Of a DNA stretch of 64,000 nt, positions 4,325 to 43,406 are shown one piece after another (positions within the stretch are counted from its first letter, which is position 1; each line of letters starts with the position of its first letter). Below the pieces are notes generated by a model. The model was given only the letters and a program-made list of their open reading frames with translations. It ran no database searches and was not told where the DNA came from. Made by a program: the position numbers and the translations under genes. Origin of the DNA: Thermanaerosceptrum fracticalcis. Its GTDB lineage: Bacteria > Bacillota > Peptococcia > DRI-13. The stretch covers positions 1,288,501 through 1,352,500 of the forward strand of contig NZ_CP045798.1 in the NCBI RefSeq assembly GCF_000746025.2, in the 5' to 3' direction.

Positions 4325-5052
4325 TCACTTCACCCCATTTCGCTATGCTTCCTCTGTAGTCCAGGATTTCGCGCCGGTTCCTTCATGTGCTTTCCAGGCG
4401 TCTCTAGCTCTCTGGCAATCTTACCTCTCCAGTCACTTTACTCCGGCTGAGCGGACGTACTGCCCAGCAGGTTCGTCACCCCCGGTTCAGCCGTTCCCTT
4501 TGGCTTTCCAGCCAAAGTTGTCTTCTCTTCCCATCCTTTGTCTACTTTGGTTGCATTCTTTGATTTATCTTCCTCCCTTCGCAAGTACAGCCGCTTTTGG
4601 CTTGCTGTACCCCACTGCAACCAGGTGCAGTGTCCTCCCGGTTTTGCCCTCCCGTCTGTTACCAGCTTTCATTGGCCGAGAGTTTGTCACTACTACGGAG
4701 TCATCTGCCACCCCACATCACTTCGTCCCGCACTTGTGTTTCCACTTGTTTGGGCCTACCCTCTCTGAGGGATGATGCCGGGCTTCTCCGGTTAAGTCTA
4801 CCTGCCTGAATCTGAACGCATCCGTCTTAACTCCTCAGGTTATCCAGCTTTCGGGCTTTCCCACTTTGTGCAAGGTTACCCACCTGACGAGCCAACCCCG
4901 GTTCGCTTGCGCTATGTTCCAGATTCCCCCTTCAGCTTCCTTCAGACCCCACCGTTGGCCAGTGACGCCCTTGCTTACGGGTTGTCTTCCCGCTGGTTAG
5001 GTGACAGGGTTTCTTTCAACCCATCGGCTCAGTAAACATGCCGGACGAACAC

Positions 5053-36786: not shown

Positions 36787-37350
36787 TTACTGTTTATTTT
36801 CCACAACGGGATCATACTTTTCTACCTCTATGATACTCTTGACCTTTTTATAGAGGGCAAAGGTAACAACCGAAGAAAGAGAAAACTTCACAGCATTAAA
36901 AGGTAAGACGGCGCCGGTTAGCATGGGCAGTACCTGATTGGCCGGCACACCCCAGAGCGGCAATAACCAGAAATAGTTGACCGCACCCATGACCAGAGTA
37001 GTTGTCACAACGCCGGCCAAAAGACCTATCACCGCCATTCCTCTGGTTTTCTTCAGGGAGTATACTAAACCTGCCACCAAAGCCATAGTACCCCCGGCAA
37101 TGAAATTGGCAGTGACACCGATGATTCCCGCCTTGGAACCGCCAATCAAAAAGGTAATGACGTTTTTCAACAGCTGCACCAGAACTCCCGCCCAGGGACC
37201 TACTGCAAAAGCGGCGATAAGGGCAGGAATGTCGCCTGGGTCATAAGTAAGAAATTCGGGAAAGAAAGGCAAAGGAAAAGCAACGGCGTACATTAAGAGA
37301 ACCCCAAAACCAGCCAGCAGAGCCAAACGTACCATTTGTTTTGTCGACAT
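36787..37350 (-). CDS. ribU: ECF transporter S component, riboflavin type
   Basis: A 187-residue membrane protein from the ATG at 37350 (MSTKQMVRLALLAGFGVLLM). Five to six membrane segments and the conserved block LTYDPGDIPALIAAFAVGP match RibU S components. VQLLKNVITFLIGGSKAG is also typical. The FMN riboswitch directly upstream fixes the substrate class as riboflavin or FMN precursor. It would work with shared EcfA/A'/T subunits, which are not in this window. Confidence 0.92.
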   Translation of the reverse strand: MSTKQMVRLALLAGFGVLLMYAVAFPLPFFPEFLTYDPGDIPALIAAFAVGPWAGVLVQLLKNVITFLIGGSKAGIIGVTANFIAGGTMALVAGLVYSLKKTRGMAVIGLLAGVVTTTLVMGAVNYFWLLPLWGVPANQVLPMLTGAVLPFNAVKFSLSSVVTFALYKKVKSIIEVEKYDPVVENKQ

Positions 37351-37403
37351 AGGTAAACATCTCCTTTGTAAATGATTATTCGGACTACCGGCAAACTCCA
37401 AAC

Positions 37404-37432
37404 AAAAATCCCGAAGGGGTTAACCTCCGGGA
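37404..37432 (-). terminator. Expression-platform terminator of the FMN riboswitch
   Basis: CCCGAAGG (37410-37417) pairs with CCTCCGGG (37424-37431) with one mismatch, followed on the minus strand by ATTTTTGTTT. It lies between the aptamer and ribU. Confidence 0.8.
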
Positions 37433-37475
37433 GAAAAAGGCAATAACCAACAGCAATACTATTTCAGCATGCTGT

Positions 37476-37592
37476 TTATCTCCTTCTCCCATCCAGACTG
37501 TACTGTCGGCCCTGGAATTACACCAGATCAACCATACGGCTCGCGGGCTTTACCGCCGGTAAGGAATTTCACCTTCCCCGAAGGAGTTTGCT
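37476..37592 (-). ncRNA. FMN (RFN) riboswitch
   Basis: The minus strand shows the conserved RFN core: GGGGAAGGTGAAATTCC, ACCGGCGGTAAAGCCCGCGA and AGGGCCGACAGTACAGTCTG followed by GATGGGAGAAGGA. FMN binding is expected to promote the terminator at 37404-37432 and switch off riboflavin uptake. Confidence 0.97.
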
Positions 37593-38622: not shown

Positions 38623-39273
38623 TTAGGTGACATTCTCCATTTTCTCTTTTTTCTTTCTCATTTTCTGCCACACATAATAAATTACCGAAATGACGGCCAC
38701 CCAGACCAGTATTCCTCCCAGGTTAATGTACCAGGCATACTGCTCCCTCCCCCAGAGGGAATAAAAGAGGATAGCGGGAGTTTGACCCAAAGCAGTTCCC
38801 ACCAGGAAAGTTTTCAACCTTACATGGGTTAAGGCAAAAGCGTAGCTGGCCAGGTCAAAGGGAACAAAAGGCAAGACCCGGGCCACAAAGACAGCCTGAT
38901 CCTGGTATTCTTCGATTAATTTGATCATTGACGCTAATATCCGCGGCGGGGCTGTAATATTAAGCCCAAGATAGCGGATTAGCCCGAAACATACCACAGC
39001 ACTGCACAAAGACCCCACCCAGGAGATGAGAAACCCCCCCCAGCTCCCGAAAATGATGCCGTTGGCTATGAAAATCATCACCGAGGGCAAGGGTGAGATA
39101 AAGGCCTGTATAATGATCAGGGCGAAAGATATGAGGGGCGCCAGGTACCCGCCGCGCAGAATCAGCTCCTTGAGAGCTGTCATATTGCCTGTGGCCAGAA
39201 TGGCCACTAGGTCGGCTCCCCAGTAAAAAATAGCTCCTATTGTCAATAAAACAAGAAGTATTTTCTTTATCAT
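38623..39273 (-). CDS. TVP38/TMEM64 family membrane protein (VTT/SNARE-associated domain)
   Basis: A 216-residue membrane protein from the ATG at 39273 (MIKKILLVLLTIG), with GAGGAG upstream. The VTT core includes SPLPSVMIFIANGIIFGSWG, and VARVLPFVPFDLASYAFALT is the hallmark re-entrant block. About six membrane segments are visible. Family members are linked to lipid scrambling or polyprenyl-phosphate transport; the substrate is not evident. Confidence 0.9.
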   Translation of the reverse strand: MIKKILLVLLTIGAIFYWGADLVAILATGNMTALKELILRGGYLAPLISFALIIIQAFISPLPSVMIFIANGIIFGSWGGFLISWVGSLCSAVVCFGLIRYLGLNITAPPRILASMIKLIEEYQDQAVFVARVLPFVPFDLASYAFALTHVRLKTFLVGTALGQTPAILFYSLWGREQYAWYINLGGILVWVAVISVIYYVWQKMRKKKEKMENVT

Positions 39274-39468
39274 ATCAGGCTCCTCATCCATGAGTAGTTA
39301 TCTTAATATACTTCTCCATTCCCGTAGCAAAATCCTATCTCAACAGGGCTTATCTTATGCCAATTTTACAGAAAAATTCTTAAATACCCCTGTTCCATTC
39401 TGACACAATCCGTTGTTTTTGCTGCTCTGTTTTGAAGCAATTTGCCCTTTCCAACCCTGATACGACCA

Positions 39469-39485
39469 TTGGCACGAATTTTGCA
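39469..39485 (+). promoter_or_regulatory. Sigma-54 (-24/-12) promoter of the AOR operon
   Basis: TTGGCACGAATTTTGCA has GG (39471-39472) and GC (39483-39484) ten bases apart and is a full match to TGGCACG-N4-TTGCA. The start is predicted near 39496. The convergent AcoR-like activator at 41802-43406 is the obvious candidate regulator. Confidence 0.88.
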
Positions 39486-39503
39486 ACTGTTTAGAAGATA
39501 AGA

Positions 39504-39594
39504 GCATATTGCTTCCGACTCATCCTGTCCCCCGGGGAAAGGCTGAGCGTTGGGTCAGGGGAGCAATTCCCTGGCCTGCCGGTGCGCAAAGGAA
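39504..39594 (+). ncRNA. Candidate molybdenum/tungsten-cofactor (Moco/Tuco) riboswitch
   Basis: The leader between the promoter start and the AOR gene is GC-rich and structured: GACTCATCCTGTCCCCCGGG, then GGCTGAGC, TCAGGGGAGCAATTCCCTGG and CCTGCCGGTGCGCAAAGGAA. CTCA/TGAG and CAGGGGA/TCCCTG can pair. Size, the AGGGGAGCAA...GGCCTGCCGG core as I remember it, and the position before a molybdopterin/tungstopterin enzyme suggest the Moco RNA family. A terminator follows immediately. I could not run a covariance model. Confidence 0.62.
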
Positions 39595-39595
39595 G

Positions 39596-39628
39596 AGATG
39601 TCTGTGAGAGGGACATCTTTTTTCTTTA
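39596..39628 (+). terminator. Terminator in the AOR leader (riboswitch platform)
   Basis: GATGTC (39597-39602) and GACATC (39612-39617) form a stem followed by TTTTTTCTTT, ending about 28 nt before the AOR start. Read-through must be regulated for the gene to be expressed. Confidence 0.82.
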
Positions 39629-39655
39629 CCAAAATATTTTATGGGGGTGTATATT

Positions 39656-41386
39656 GTGTATATTCTAAGGGTAAACATGTCTGACCTCTCTATCAAAAAA
39701 GAAACGGTGCCGGAGAAGTACCAGTTAATGGGTGGGCGTGCCCTAACGTCACACATCATCAACGCCGAAGTTGATCCCCACAGTCATGCTTTAGGTCCCA
39801 ACAACAAACTGGTCTTCGCCCCAGGGCTTCTGGCCGGGACTCCTGCTCCCAGCTCGGGACGTCTTTCCGTTGGTACCAAAAGTCCCCTTACCGGTACAAT
39901 CAAGGAAAGCAACGCCGGTGGTGTTGCTGCCCAAAAACTGGCCCGTTTAGGTGTGAAAGCGATTATCGTCGAAGGCCAGCCCAAAGACGATAAATGGTAC
40001 ATCCTCAAAATAGATAATGAGGGAGGCCAACTCCTTCCCGCCGATAAAATAATAGGAAAAGGTAATTATGAAACGGGTGAATTGTTAAGAGCCCAATTCG
40101 GGGAAAAAGCCGGTGTCATCTCCATCGGACCAGCCGGAGAAAACAAGATGAGCGCTGCTTCCATTGCTGTAGCAGATATGGAAGGACATCCCGTGCGCCA
40201 TGCCGGCCGCGGCGGTACGGGGGCTGTCATGGGATCCAAAGGACTTAAAGCCCTAGTTATTGACGACACTAATGCCCCAGGTGTAGAAATCAAAGATAAA
40301 GAAGCCTTTAGGGGAGCCGCTCAAGCCTTTAGCAAGATGCTCCTGGCTAACCCTACCTGTGGTACGGGTTTACCCACTTACGGTACAGCTGTTCTGATTA
40401 ACATATTAAATGAAGCAGGTGGACTGCCTACGGAAAACTTTAAGCGGGGACGTTTCGAAGGTGCTGAAAAGATCAGTGGCGAATTCATGTATGACACGAT
40501 TCTGGCCCGGAAAGGCAATCCCACTCATGCCTGCCATCCCGGCTGTGTCATGCGCTGTTCGCAAATTTATAACGACGCTGAGGGCAATTACCTCACAGCC
40601 GGCTTTGAATATGAAACCATCTGGGCCTTTGGAGCCGACTGCTGTATTGACAATCTGGACCAGATTGCCATGGCCGACCGCCTCTGTGATGATCTGGGCC
40701 TGGATACCATTGAAATGGGTGTAACCATGGCAGTAGCCATGGAAGCTGGTGTTATCCCCTTCGGCGATGGGGAAGGTATGCTTAATCTCCTGAAAAATGA
40801 AATTGGCAAAGCTACCCCCCTGGGAAGAATCCTGGGCCAGGGTGCAGCCTTTACAGGCCAAGCCTATGGTATAACCCGGGTACCCGTTGTGAAAAAACAG
40901 GGGATTCCTGCTTATGACCCCCGGGCCGTAAAAGGTATCGGTGTTACCTACGCTACTACCACTATGGGTGCTGACCATACGGCGGGATACAGTGTAGCCA
41001 CTAATATTCTAAAGGTCGGCGGTTTTGTTAATCCTCTCGGCACAGAAGGTCAGGTAGACCTTTCCCGGGGCCTGCAAATCGCCACTGCTGCCATCGACAG
41101 TTCCGGTCTCTGTCTCTTTGTAGCCTTTACTGTCTTAGATGAGCCGGAAGCACTGCCGAAAGTGGCCGATATGCTTACCGCCCAGTACGGGGTAAAAGTA
41201 ACTGTAGATGATATTACAGAATTGGGCAAAGCAGTCTTAAGGGTGGAAAGAGAATTCAATACAAGAGCAGGATTTACACCTGCCCATGACCGCCTCCCCG
41301 AGTTCTTTGCCAATGAACCGGTTCCGCCCCACAACACCACTTTTGACATTGCCGGTGAAGAATTGGATAAAGTATTCAACTTTTAA
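39656..41386 (+). CDS. Aldehyde:ferredoxin oxidoreductase family protein
   Basis: A 576-residue tungsten/molybdenum pterin enzyme. I chose the GTG at 39656 (MYILRVNMSDLSIKKE) with GGGGGTG upstream, because AOR proteins begin close to this ILRVDLS-like strand. The N-terminal AOR domain has FAPGLLAGTPAPSSGRLSVG. The 4Fe-4S ligands are CHPGCVMRC plus a Cys in SSGLCLF. AGRGGTGAVMGSKGLKAL binds the pterin. It oxidises aldehydes to acids with ferredoxin, or works in reverse. The MoaD-like gene follows 13 bp later. The true substrate is unknown because family branches differ. Confidence 0.93.
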   Translation: MYILRVNMSDLSIKKETVPEKYQLMGGRALTSHIINAEVDPHSHALGPNNKLVFAPGLLAGTPAPSSGRLSVGTKSPLTGTIKESNAGGVAAQKLARLGVKAIIVEGQPKDDKWYILKIDNEGGQLLPADKIIGKGNYETGELLRAQFGEKAGVISIGPAGENKMSAASIAVADMEGHPVRHAGRGGTGAVMGSKGLKALVIDDTNAPGVEIKDKEAFRGAAQAFSKMLLANPTCGTGLPTYGTAVLINILNEAGGLPTENFKRGRFEGAEKISGEFMYDTILARKGNPTHACHPGCVMRCSQIYNDAEGNYLTAGFEYETIWAFGADCCIDNLDQIAMADRLCDDLGLDTIEMGVTMAVAMEAGVIPFGDGEGMLNLLKNEIGKATPLGRILGQGAAFTGQAYGITRVPVVKKQGIPAYDPRAVKGIGVTYATTTMGADHTAGYSVATNILKVGGFVNPLGTEGQVDLSRGLQIATAAIDSSGLCLFVAFTVLDEPEALPKVADMLTAQYGVKVTVDDITELGKAVLRVEREFNTRAGFTPAHDRLPEFFANEPVPPHNTTFDIAGEELDKVFNF

Positions 41387-41399
41387 GGAGTGAAAACCA

Positions 41400-41636
41400 T
41401 TGCAAGTGGAGGTTCGCCTCTATGCATATTTACGGGACACCATACCTGAAGCAAAAAAAGGGCCTCTCCTGGTAGATATTCCTGAAGACAGTACGATTGG
41501 TGATTTACTTGCCTATTTGCAATTACCAGATGAATCAAACTTAATTGTGATGGTAGACGGGATACGACAGTTTAATTCCTATCCTTTAAAAAATGGGTCT
41601 CGCATAGCCATCTTCCCTCCTATCGGCGGGGGCTAA
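41400..41636 (+). CDS. MoaD/ThiS-like sulfur carrier protein
   Basis: A 78-residue ubiquitin-fold protein (QVEVRLYAYLRDTIP start, TTG initiation, AAGGAGTG upstream) ending in FPPIGGG. The C-terminal Gly-Gly is thiocarboxylated in MoaD/ThiS proteins. Next to an AOR gene it most likely supplies sulfur for the dithiolene of tungstopterin or molybdopterin, as for the AOR-associated MoaD2 type. It shares the AOR transcript and precedes the operon terminator. Confidence 0.9.
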   Translation: MQVEVRLYAYLRDTIPEAKKGPLLVDIPEDSTIGDLLAYLQLPDESNLIVMVDGIRQFNSYPLKNGSRIAIFPPIGGG

Positions 41637-41801: not shown

Positions 41802-43406
41802 TTATATTTTTATCCGGTATTTCTCTATTTTGCGATACAGGGTGTTACGTGAGATACCAAGATAACGGGAGGTCTGGGTGATGTTGTTACCATACCGCTT
41901 CAGAGCTAATCTAATGGTCTGAACCTCCAGGTTATCCATAACCGTACCCCCGCCGTCCTGTGGACTCACATTGTACAAGGTCTGTAAGGTGGTAGGCAGA
42001 TGCTCGGGCAAAATAATTTTGTTATCGGCCAGGTGAATAGCCCTTTCCAGGACATTGACCAGTTCACGGACATTACCCGGCCAGGAATAGGTGTAGAACA
42101 ACTGGTCTACCTGGGGTGAGACCTCCAGGCCAGCATGATGATAGCGGCTGCTCAAATCCGCCAGGATATGGTCCGTAAGAATACCGATATCCTCCCGGCG
42201 CTCCCGGAGGGGAGGGATTTCAATGGTGATCACGTTTAGCCGGTAGTAAAGGTCCAGGCGAAATTTCCCTTGCTGCACCTGTTCATAAAGATTTTTATTG
42301 GTGGCAGCGATAATCCGCACATCTGCGGGAATAAGCTGAACTCCGCCAATACGGTGATAACACTTTTCCTGGAGGACGCGGAGCAGGGCCGCCTGGCAAT
42401 CTAAAGGCAGTTCGGCTATCTCATCCAGAAACAGAGTACCGCCATTGGCCAACTCAAATTTACCTTTGGCCCCCCTGGCCCGGGCGCCGGTAAAGGCACC
42501 TTCTTCATAGCCAAAGAGTTCACTTTCTACCAGGTTCTGGGGTACGCCCCCACAGTTAATGGCTACAAAGGGCCCGTGACAACGGCTGCTTTTATTATGG
42601 ATGGCATGAGCCAGCAATTCTTTTCCCGTGCCGCTTTCGCCCTGGAGCAAAACGGTAGATTCAGTTTGAGCTGCACGCCTGGCCAGCTTTATCACTGTCT
42701 GCATTTTTTCACTTTCAGCGATAATGGAATCAAAAGTATAAACGGCCTTGTGCTGGTAAACCGGCGTCATATTTTTATGTTTCTGGCTCTCCAGCATGAT
42801 CAGGCGGTTTTGTATGGCTTTGGCCCCGGCCACCACCAGAGCCAAATTATGGGGATGAGCCCGGTAGTAATTGCCCGAAATATCCAGTACCCCTGCCACT
42901 TCCCCTTTACTGTTAAAAATAGGAGCGGCAGAGCAGGTCAAAAAATGATTTTCCTTTAATAAATGTTCCTGGGCAAAGATAGTCACCGGTTTCTCTTCTA
43001 CCAACGCTGTTCCGATGGCATTGGTTCCTTTCCTGTGTTCATGCCAGTTAACCCCCTGGGAGAGGTTTACCCGCCGGGCTTTTTCCATAAAACTGGTGTC
43101 TCCCAGCACTTTCAGGATGTAGCCCTGGGGATCTGTAAGAATAACACAGAAGCCGGAACCTTTCATAGAAAGATAGATTTCTTCCATGATTGGTTTAGCC
43201 ACCTCAATAAGCATACTGTATCTTTCCAGTAATTCCTTAAAACGATGTTCCTCCAGCTTATCCAAATGGTTAGCGGTGAAAGGATCCAGCTTAGTCAGAC
43301 ATCTCTCCCAGGAACGGGCTACAACGGTCGGGAGGGTTTTATCCAATTTCCCGTGGTAGACAAATTTTTTCCAGGCTTTTGCTACCTGGGGTGCTTTTAA
43401 AAGCAT
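41802..43406 (-). CDS. AcoR-like sigma-54-dependent activator (GAF, AAA+, Fis-type HTH)
   Basis: A 534-residue regulator. Residues about 50-190 form a GAF-like sensor, as in AcoR (CVILTDPQGYILKVLGD, NEIGTALV-like NAIGTALVEEKPV). The AAA+ domain has GESGTGKELLAHAI, GAFTGARARG and GTLFLDEIAELPLD. The C-terminal Fis-type HTH is NITQTSRYLGISRNTLYRKIEKY. AcoR-family proteins respond to small carbonyl or alcohol compounds, which suits control of the convergent AOR operon and its -24/-12 promoter. The target assignment is inference from adjacency. Confidence 0.92.
   Translation of the reverse strand: MLLKAPQVAKAWKKFVYHGKLDKTLPTVVARSWERCLTKLDPFTANHLDKLEEHRFKELLERYSMLIEVAKPIMEEIYLSMKGSGFCVILTDPQGYILKVLGDTSFMEKARRVNLSQGVNWHEHRKGTNAIGTALVEEKPVTIFAQEHLLKENHFLTCSAAPIFNSKGEVAGVLDISGNYYRAHPHNLALVVAGAKAIQNRLIMLESQKHKNMTPVYQHKAVYTFDSIIAESEKMQTVIKLARRAAQTESTVLLQGESGTGKELLAHAIHNKSSRCHGPFVAINCGGVPQNLVESELFGYEEGAFTGARARGAKGKFELANGGTLFLDEIAELPLDCQAALLRVLQEKCYHRIGGVQLIPADVRIIAATNKNLYEQVQQGKFRLDLYYRLNVITIEIPPLRERREDIGILTDHILADLSSRYHHAGLEVSPQVDQLFYTYSWPGNVRELVNVLERAIHLADNKIILPEHLPTTLQTLYNVSPQDGGGTVMDNLEVQTIRLALKRYGNNITQTSRYLGISRNTLYRKIEKYRIKI

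Follow-up and report, generated by a model that had tools for sequence, protein, structure and literature searches.

How do anaerobes avoid the wasted expression of aldehyde:ferredoxin oxidoreductase (AOR)? Tungsten is scarce, and an AOR protein that lacks its cofactor can do nothing. We addressed this question at an AOR locus of Thermanaerosceptrum fracticalcis, located in a 64-kb stretch of DNA that is referred to here as the window; its features are collected in Table 1. The locus carries a sigma-54 element, a leader RNA of recognisable family and subtype, a terminator whose overlap with P1 recurs across the class, and a conserved linkage to an activator gene. Sequence and comparison strongly support the presence of two gates in series, the first being enhancer-dependent initiation and the second a Moco/Tuco-type RNA and its terminator. 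We think it likely, though well short of certain, that these form a serial AND gate, in which an effector-driven activator opens the sigma-54 promoter and a Tuco-type RNA then permits expression of AOR and moaD only with cofactor. The enzyme would probably be made only when both the signal and the rare metal cofactor are present. The sequence-only reading had proposed double gating of this module; its two serial gates are well supported, and the direction of the RNA, on which it was silent, is suggested by the architecture of the class, which points to an ON switch. A gate of this kind, protein first and RNA second, would explain how anaerobes avoid wasted AOR expression, and the module would be a clear case from nature in which a riboswitch is joined to sigma-54 initiation.

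Table 1 Features of the AOR module (window positions)
Feature	Position	Strand	Basis or remark
Predicted activator-binding site (UAS), TGTTCCATTCTGACACA	39391..39407	+	2 mismatches to TGTTTC-N5-GAAACA
Sigma-54 (-24/-12) promoter, TGGCACGAATTTTGCA	39470..39485	+	perfect consensus; predicted +1 ~39496
Variant Moco/Tuco-type riboswitch aptamer	39501..39610	+	RF01055, hold-out model, class covariation
Aptamer P1	39512-39516/39591-39595	+	5 bp
Terminator expression platform	39591..39628	+	folding and pair probabilities
Aldehyde:ferredoxin oxidoreductase (tungstopterin AOR family)	39656..41386	+	Pfam AFOR_N and AFOR_C
MoaD/ThiS-like small sulfur-carrier protein	41400..41636	+	TTG start; PF02597; ends in GG
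GAF-AAA+-Fis sigma-54 activator (AcoR/DhaR-like)	41802..43406	-	GAF + Sigma54_activat + HTH_8 (Pfam)

The AOR protein carries both family domains above cutoff (AFOR_N, 217.8 bits; AFOR_C, 270.9 bits) and matches AOR structures in the PDB with a best E of 1.7e-105; its homology to the W-AOR structures suggests a tungsten pyranopterin, aldehyde-oxidising enzyme. The probable start is GTG 39656 behind GGGGG, and the reading frame is also open from ATG 39641. The MoaD/ThiS-like protein falls below the cutoff of TIGR01687. The activator carries PF00158 and PF02954, and the GAFTGA loop is present in its translation. An AOR gene and a MoaD-like gene behind the leader, with an AcoR-like activator convergent downstream, had been read from the letters alone, as had the full-consensus promoter, and the Pfam matches and the exact match at the -24/-12 element bear out each of these. 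The module shares with sigma-54 operons that have convergent or divergent GAF-AAA+-Fis activators (AcoR/DhaR type) the domain order, a perfect -24/-12 and a palindromic upstream site; it differs from them in that initiation is followed by an RNA of predicted cofactor-sensing type. Elsewhere in the window, an FMN riboswitch precedes the substrate-binding component of a riboflavin-type ECF transporter (36787-37589, minus strand), an ordinary arrangement, and a Group II intron D1-D4-3 RNA match of 58 bits lies at 4797-4965 (minus strand).

The first gate is marked by a promoter with 0 mismatches to TGGCAC-N5-TTGCW, in which TGGCAC (39470-39475) and TTGCA (39481-39485) are separated by a 5-base spacer (TGGCAC-N5-TTGCA), and which is the sole perfect match in the 64-kb window. 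The 3.8-Mb genome holds 16 perfect matches against 0 for a reversed-pattern control, which rules out a chance match as an artefact. It encodes one copy of rpoN and more than 20 AAA+ sigma-54 activators related to that of the window. At G000:C1:1532974 and 1542581, 9.6 kb apart, it has a pair of perfect sigma-54 promoters of identical sequence whose activator genes also score identically, apparently a recent duplication. A sigma-54 start is expected about 12 nt downstream of the -12 GC, and the predicted +1 means that very little of the transcript would precede the aptamer. In a set of 78 AOR-homologue loci, an adjacent GAF-type AAA+ activator accompanies 8/9 leaders with a -24/-12 element versus 6/69 without one (Fisher p 1e-6). 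It is very improbable that the RNA gate is real and the -24/-12 element incidental, normal transcription coming from another promoter. Such a reading draws on the AOR leader of L034 (7713-7862), where RNA and terminator come before a -24/-12-like element, so that sigma-54 transcription would bypass the RNA and the two controls would act in parallel. At the window locus it is opposed by the linkage to the adjacent activator, by a perfect consensus so spaced that the RNA would start near +1, and by a search of 39250-39500, which revealed no sigma-70-like promoter ahead of the aptamer.

The serial reading gains further detail from the four nearest modules (L019-L022), whose AOR is 70-74% identical to the window AOR and whose activators occupy the same convergent position and are 54-60% identical, sensor included. 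Paired TGTTTC-N5-GAAACA sites with 0-3 mismatches lie near the promoter in all four. A single site of this kind would arise by chance in the 178-bp region with a probability of 0.015, a modestly significant value, and the site may function as a UAS. These modules share AOR, MoaD, convergent activator and -24/-12 promoter with the window and differ from it in that the aptamer between promoter and AOR is absent; L025, L026 and others show the reverse, an aptamer and no -24/-12 element. The occurrence of promoter-only and RNA-only relatives suggests that the promoter module and the RNA module were combined in this lineage. Within the sampled loci, promoter and then RNA in series before AOR are found only in the window genome and its congener. 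In L019 (11774-16066), a HesA/MoeB-like gene, a Moco RNA and two MoeA-like genes adjoin the AOR-MoaD-activator module, and a comparable HesA/RNA/MoeA cluster lies elsewhere in the source genome (L002).

The second gate depends on the identity of the leader RNA, which had been proposed as a Moco/W-cofactor-like riboswitch. A search of a 501-base stretch with RF01055 supports that proposal, with 36.9 bits (E 3.2e-7) at 39501-39610, over the Rfam gathering cutoff of 36; the P3 columns are deleted in the alignment, i.e. P3 is absent. The faster default Rfam scans of the whole window and the whole genome did not report this RNA, and because its score is barely over the cutoff and is lost to default filters, routine annotation would overlook it. 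When the window RNA is left out and a covariance model is built from 14 relatives, that model matches it at 81.3 bits (E 3.8e-19), as its sole match up to E 10 in the 64 kb. In the alignment of 15 members, 19 of the 29 consensus pairs covary and 91.7% of cells are paired, which 0/500 shuffles reach; covariation is far above both shuffles and slid controls, and the P1-P2-P4-P5 architecture is kept. That the RNA is degenerate or a mere constitutive attenuator, cofactor sensing having been lost under a real sigma-54 control, is distinctly unlikely. The marginal Rfam score would fit such decay, as would the departures from most subtype members ahead of the P4 GGG and within the P5 loop, and they are countered by the score against its own subtype and by the retention of all core positions, including the invariant TCCGA, GCCTGCC and GCAAAGGA. 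The low RF01055 score is better explained by membership of a distinct subtype than by decay.

Judged by its sequence features, the window RNA is a member of a distinct subtype in which P3 is absent, the loop is GYRA, the receptor is absent and P5 is inverted. The GAAA loop and 11-nt receptor in P2, typical but not universal for RF01055, are absent from the window RNA, which has a GCAA loop; GYRA replaces GAAA, and the CCTAAG receptor is absent, in 15/15 subtype members. The P5 closing pairs are GC...GC in place of CC...GG. TCCGA, the GYRA loop in P4, GCCTGC and GCAAAGGA recur together in at least 20 genomes of the phylum. Regulski et al. 2008 (PMC2408646) mention four GCAA RNAs without receptor and do not set them apart as a group, a remark that the 15 members extend; the joint loss of loop and receptor therefore marks the subtype without excluding it from RF01055. 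By their criterion, P3-less RNAs are of the tungsten-cofactor type, an argument for W versus Mo discrimination that is correlative in the original work, and in the sections covered no ON-type or AOR-specific subtype was found. With the P3-less (Tuco) form described there, the window RNA has in common P1/P2/P4/P5, the TCCGA and AAAGG core, a terminator platform and a W-enzyme context; it differs in its receptor-less GYRA loop, inverted P5, use of the P1 3' strand by the terminator, and a predicted sigma-54 start immediately upstream.

Among 25 inspected members of the subtype, 20 lie directly before AOR (9/25) or before a ferredoxin-like subunit and then AOR (11/25). The others precede a ferredoxin-like subunit at a contig end (1/25), NuoE/NuoF-like genes (3/25, with AOR following in one genome) and a sigma-54 activator related to that of the window (1/25). 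In the source genome, three Moco-family RNAs were found for 11 AOR-family genes; the other two lie before a TupA-like substrate-binding protein gene and beside a MoeA gene, and the window AOR is the only one of the 11 under such an RNA. Found almost only before tungstoenzymes, this aptamer subtype offers a handle on how Moco-family RNAs tell the W from the Mo cofactor; the cofactor itself is unstable.

To place the serial combination in a wider context, 398 genomes sampled from the phylum were searched for a -24/-12 element followed by a Moco core, which gave 12 matches against 4 for the control. Half of the 12 hold up on inspection, one being in the window genome, two in genomes of a single family and three in genomes of another. 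The rest (L226, L227, L228, L232, L234, L235) were dismissed, having no Moco features or lying within coding sequence. In the two-genome family (L224, and L225 at 1501-1700), -24/-12, a canonical P3-less Moco RNA and a terminator precede an NAD-type aldehyde dehydrogenase, which is not a Mo/W enzyme; the 5' arm of the L225 terminator is a repeat of the 3' strand of P4 (CATACCTC), and this points to a cofactor-OFF switch, the reverse of the logic proposed for the AOR leader. In the other family (L229-L231, one genus), -24/-12 and a canonical Moco RNA precede MoeA-like genes; L230 appears to carry two tandem Moco RNAs. Some Moco-family RNA was detected by model R1 in 122/398 genomes. On these sequence comparisons, the combination is rare, is present in at least three families and is not unique to the window. 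The sequence-only reading had called it unusual, which holds in so far as the pair is rare and stands before AOR only in this genus, and must be tempered because at least five other genomes of the 398 place canonical Moco RNAs in such series before other genes. A candidate second composite in the source genome, L163 (G000:C1:1550881), was rejected, since the operon there is atoE-atoDA and its short hairpin (CCGAG) comes without any match to the Moco RNA. E. coli moaABCDE likewise has protein-controlled initiation (FNR/ModE-controlled promoters) followed by a Moco-family RNA, and differs from the window in having no enhancer-dependent sigma-54 initiation, in being a biosynthesis operon and in its translational OFF control. 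In the open-licence literature no description of sigma-54 combined with a Moco RNA or other riboswitch was found, nor did one turn up in a 2025 survey of sigma-54 regulons looked through for riboswitch, aldehyde ferredoxin and tungsten.

The relation between P1 and the terminator suggests the probable direction of the switch. The core stem (39596-39602/39612-39618; 7 bp, loop of 9) is followed by a T run, and the extended stem takes in the P1 3' strand; a simple terminator scan with a loop limit of 8 omitted it. Thermodynamic folding of the ligand-free leader gives a terminator probability of ~1 and a P1 probability of 0, in keeping with the terminator previously placed at 39596-39628. In 13/13 scored AOR/W-enzyme leaders, the window included, the 5' arm of the terminator shares 5-9 nt with the 3' strand of P1, these being the leaders in which the automatic caller reached the terminator; in L025, L207, L214, L257 and L262 it missed or misplaced the terminator, and the overlap was read from the sequence. 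In the canonical leaders of TupA-like L001 and L269 and of aldehyde dehydrogenase L225, a gap of 9-23 nt separates P1 and the terminator; in some other canonical leaders the caller stopped at an earlier T run, and these are uninformative. The overlap suggests that the folded, ligand-bound aptamer would block termination, and the subtype most likely acts as a cofactor-ON switch. The direction is less certain for the window leader than for relatives such as L034 and L026. In the window the 7-bp core terminator begins exactly after the 5-bp P1, so both could coexist, and competition would depend on an outer P1 and on the stretch of the stem that reaches into the U tract; P1 with terminator folds at -49.0 kcal/mol versus -55.5 for the extended terminator. 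This compatibility also favours the same two gates with a cofactor-OFF RNA, whose bound aptamer would leave the adjacent core terminator free so that abundant cofactor represses AOR; the OFF-type look of L225 and the OFF action of the canonical E. coli moa RNA (PMC2408646) point the same way. We regard this as unlikely, since no antiterminator pairing is seen in the window leader, the ligand-free fold already terminates, the terminator overlaps P1 in class members, and shutting down a cofactor-using enzyme when cofactor is plentiful makes little sense.

For the favoured AND gate we propose the following course. The GAF domain of the activator would sense an effector, which is probably a metabolite of the aldehyde, alcohol or keto type. 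The activator would then occupy the UAS near 39391 and cause the sigma-54 promoter to open, and RNA polymerase would transcribe the P3-less aptamer almost from +1. Binding of a tungsten (or closely related) pyranopterin cofactor would hold P1 and P5, keeping the purine-rich P1 3' strand out of the extended terminator stem, and AOR and moaD would be made; with cofactor absent, the terminator would win. The effector, the ligand and the ON direction in the window leader, like the function of the UAS, are inferred. A broader proposal, possible if doubtful, is that the GYRA/P5-inverted RNAs form a separate cofactor-ON riboswitch subclass licensing AOR-type tungstoenzymes, possibly for another tungsten-cofactor form than that of the transporter and biosynthesis Tuco RNAs, and that, with sigma-54 composites before AOR (ON) and before the NAD-type aldehyde dehydrogenase of L225 (OFF), one kind of enhancer-dependent promoter would serve a reciprocal choice in which the cell oxidises aldehydes by a W-dependent or a W-independent route.

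At L220/L247 (G355:C1:1059711-1059809), an RNA of the AOR-type subtype precedes the gene of a sigma-54 activator about 50% identical to the window activator, and then an iron-type alcohol dehydrogenase, an arrangement that would put the activator, and not the enzyme, behind the RNA gate.
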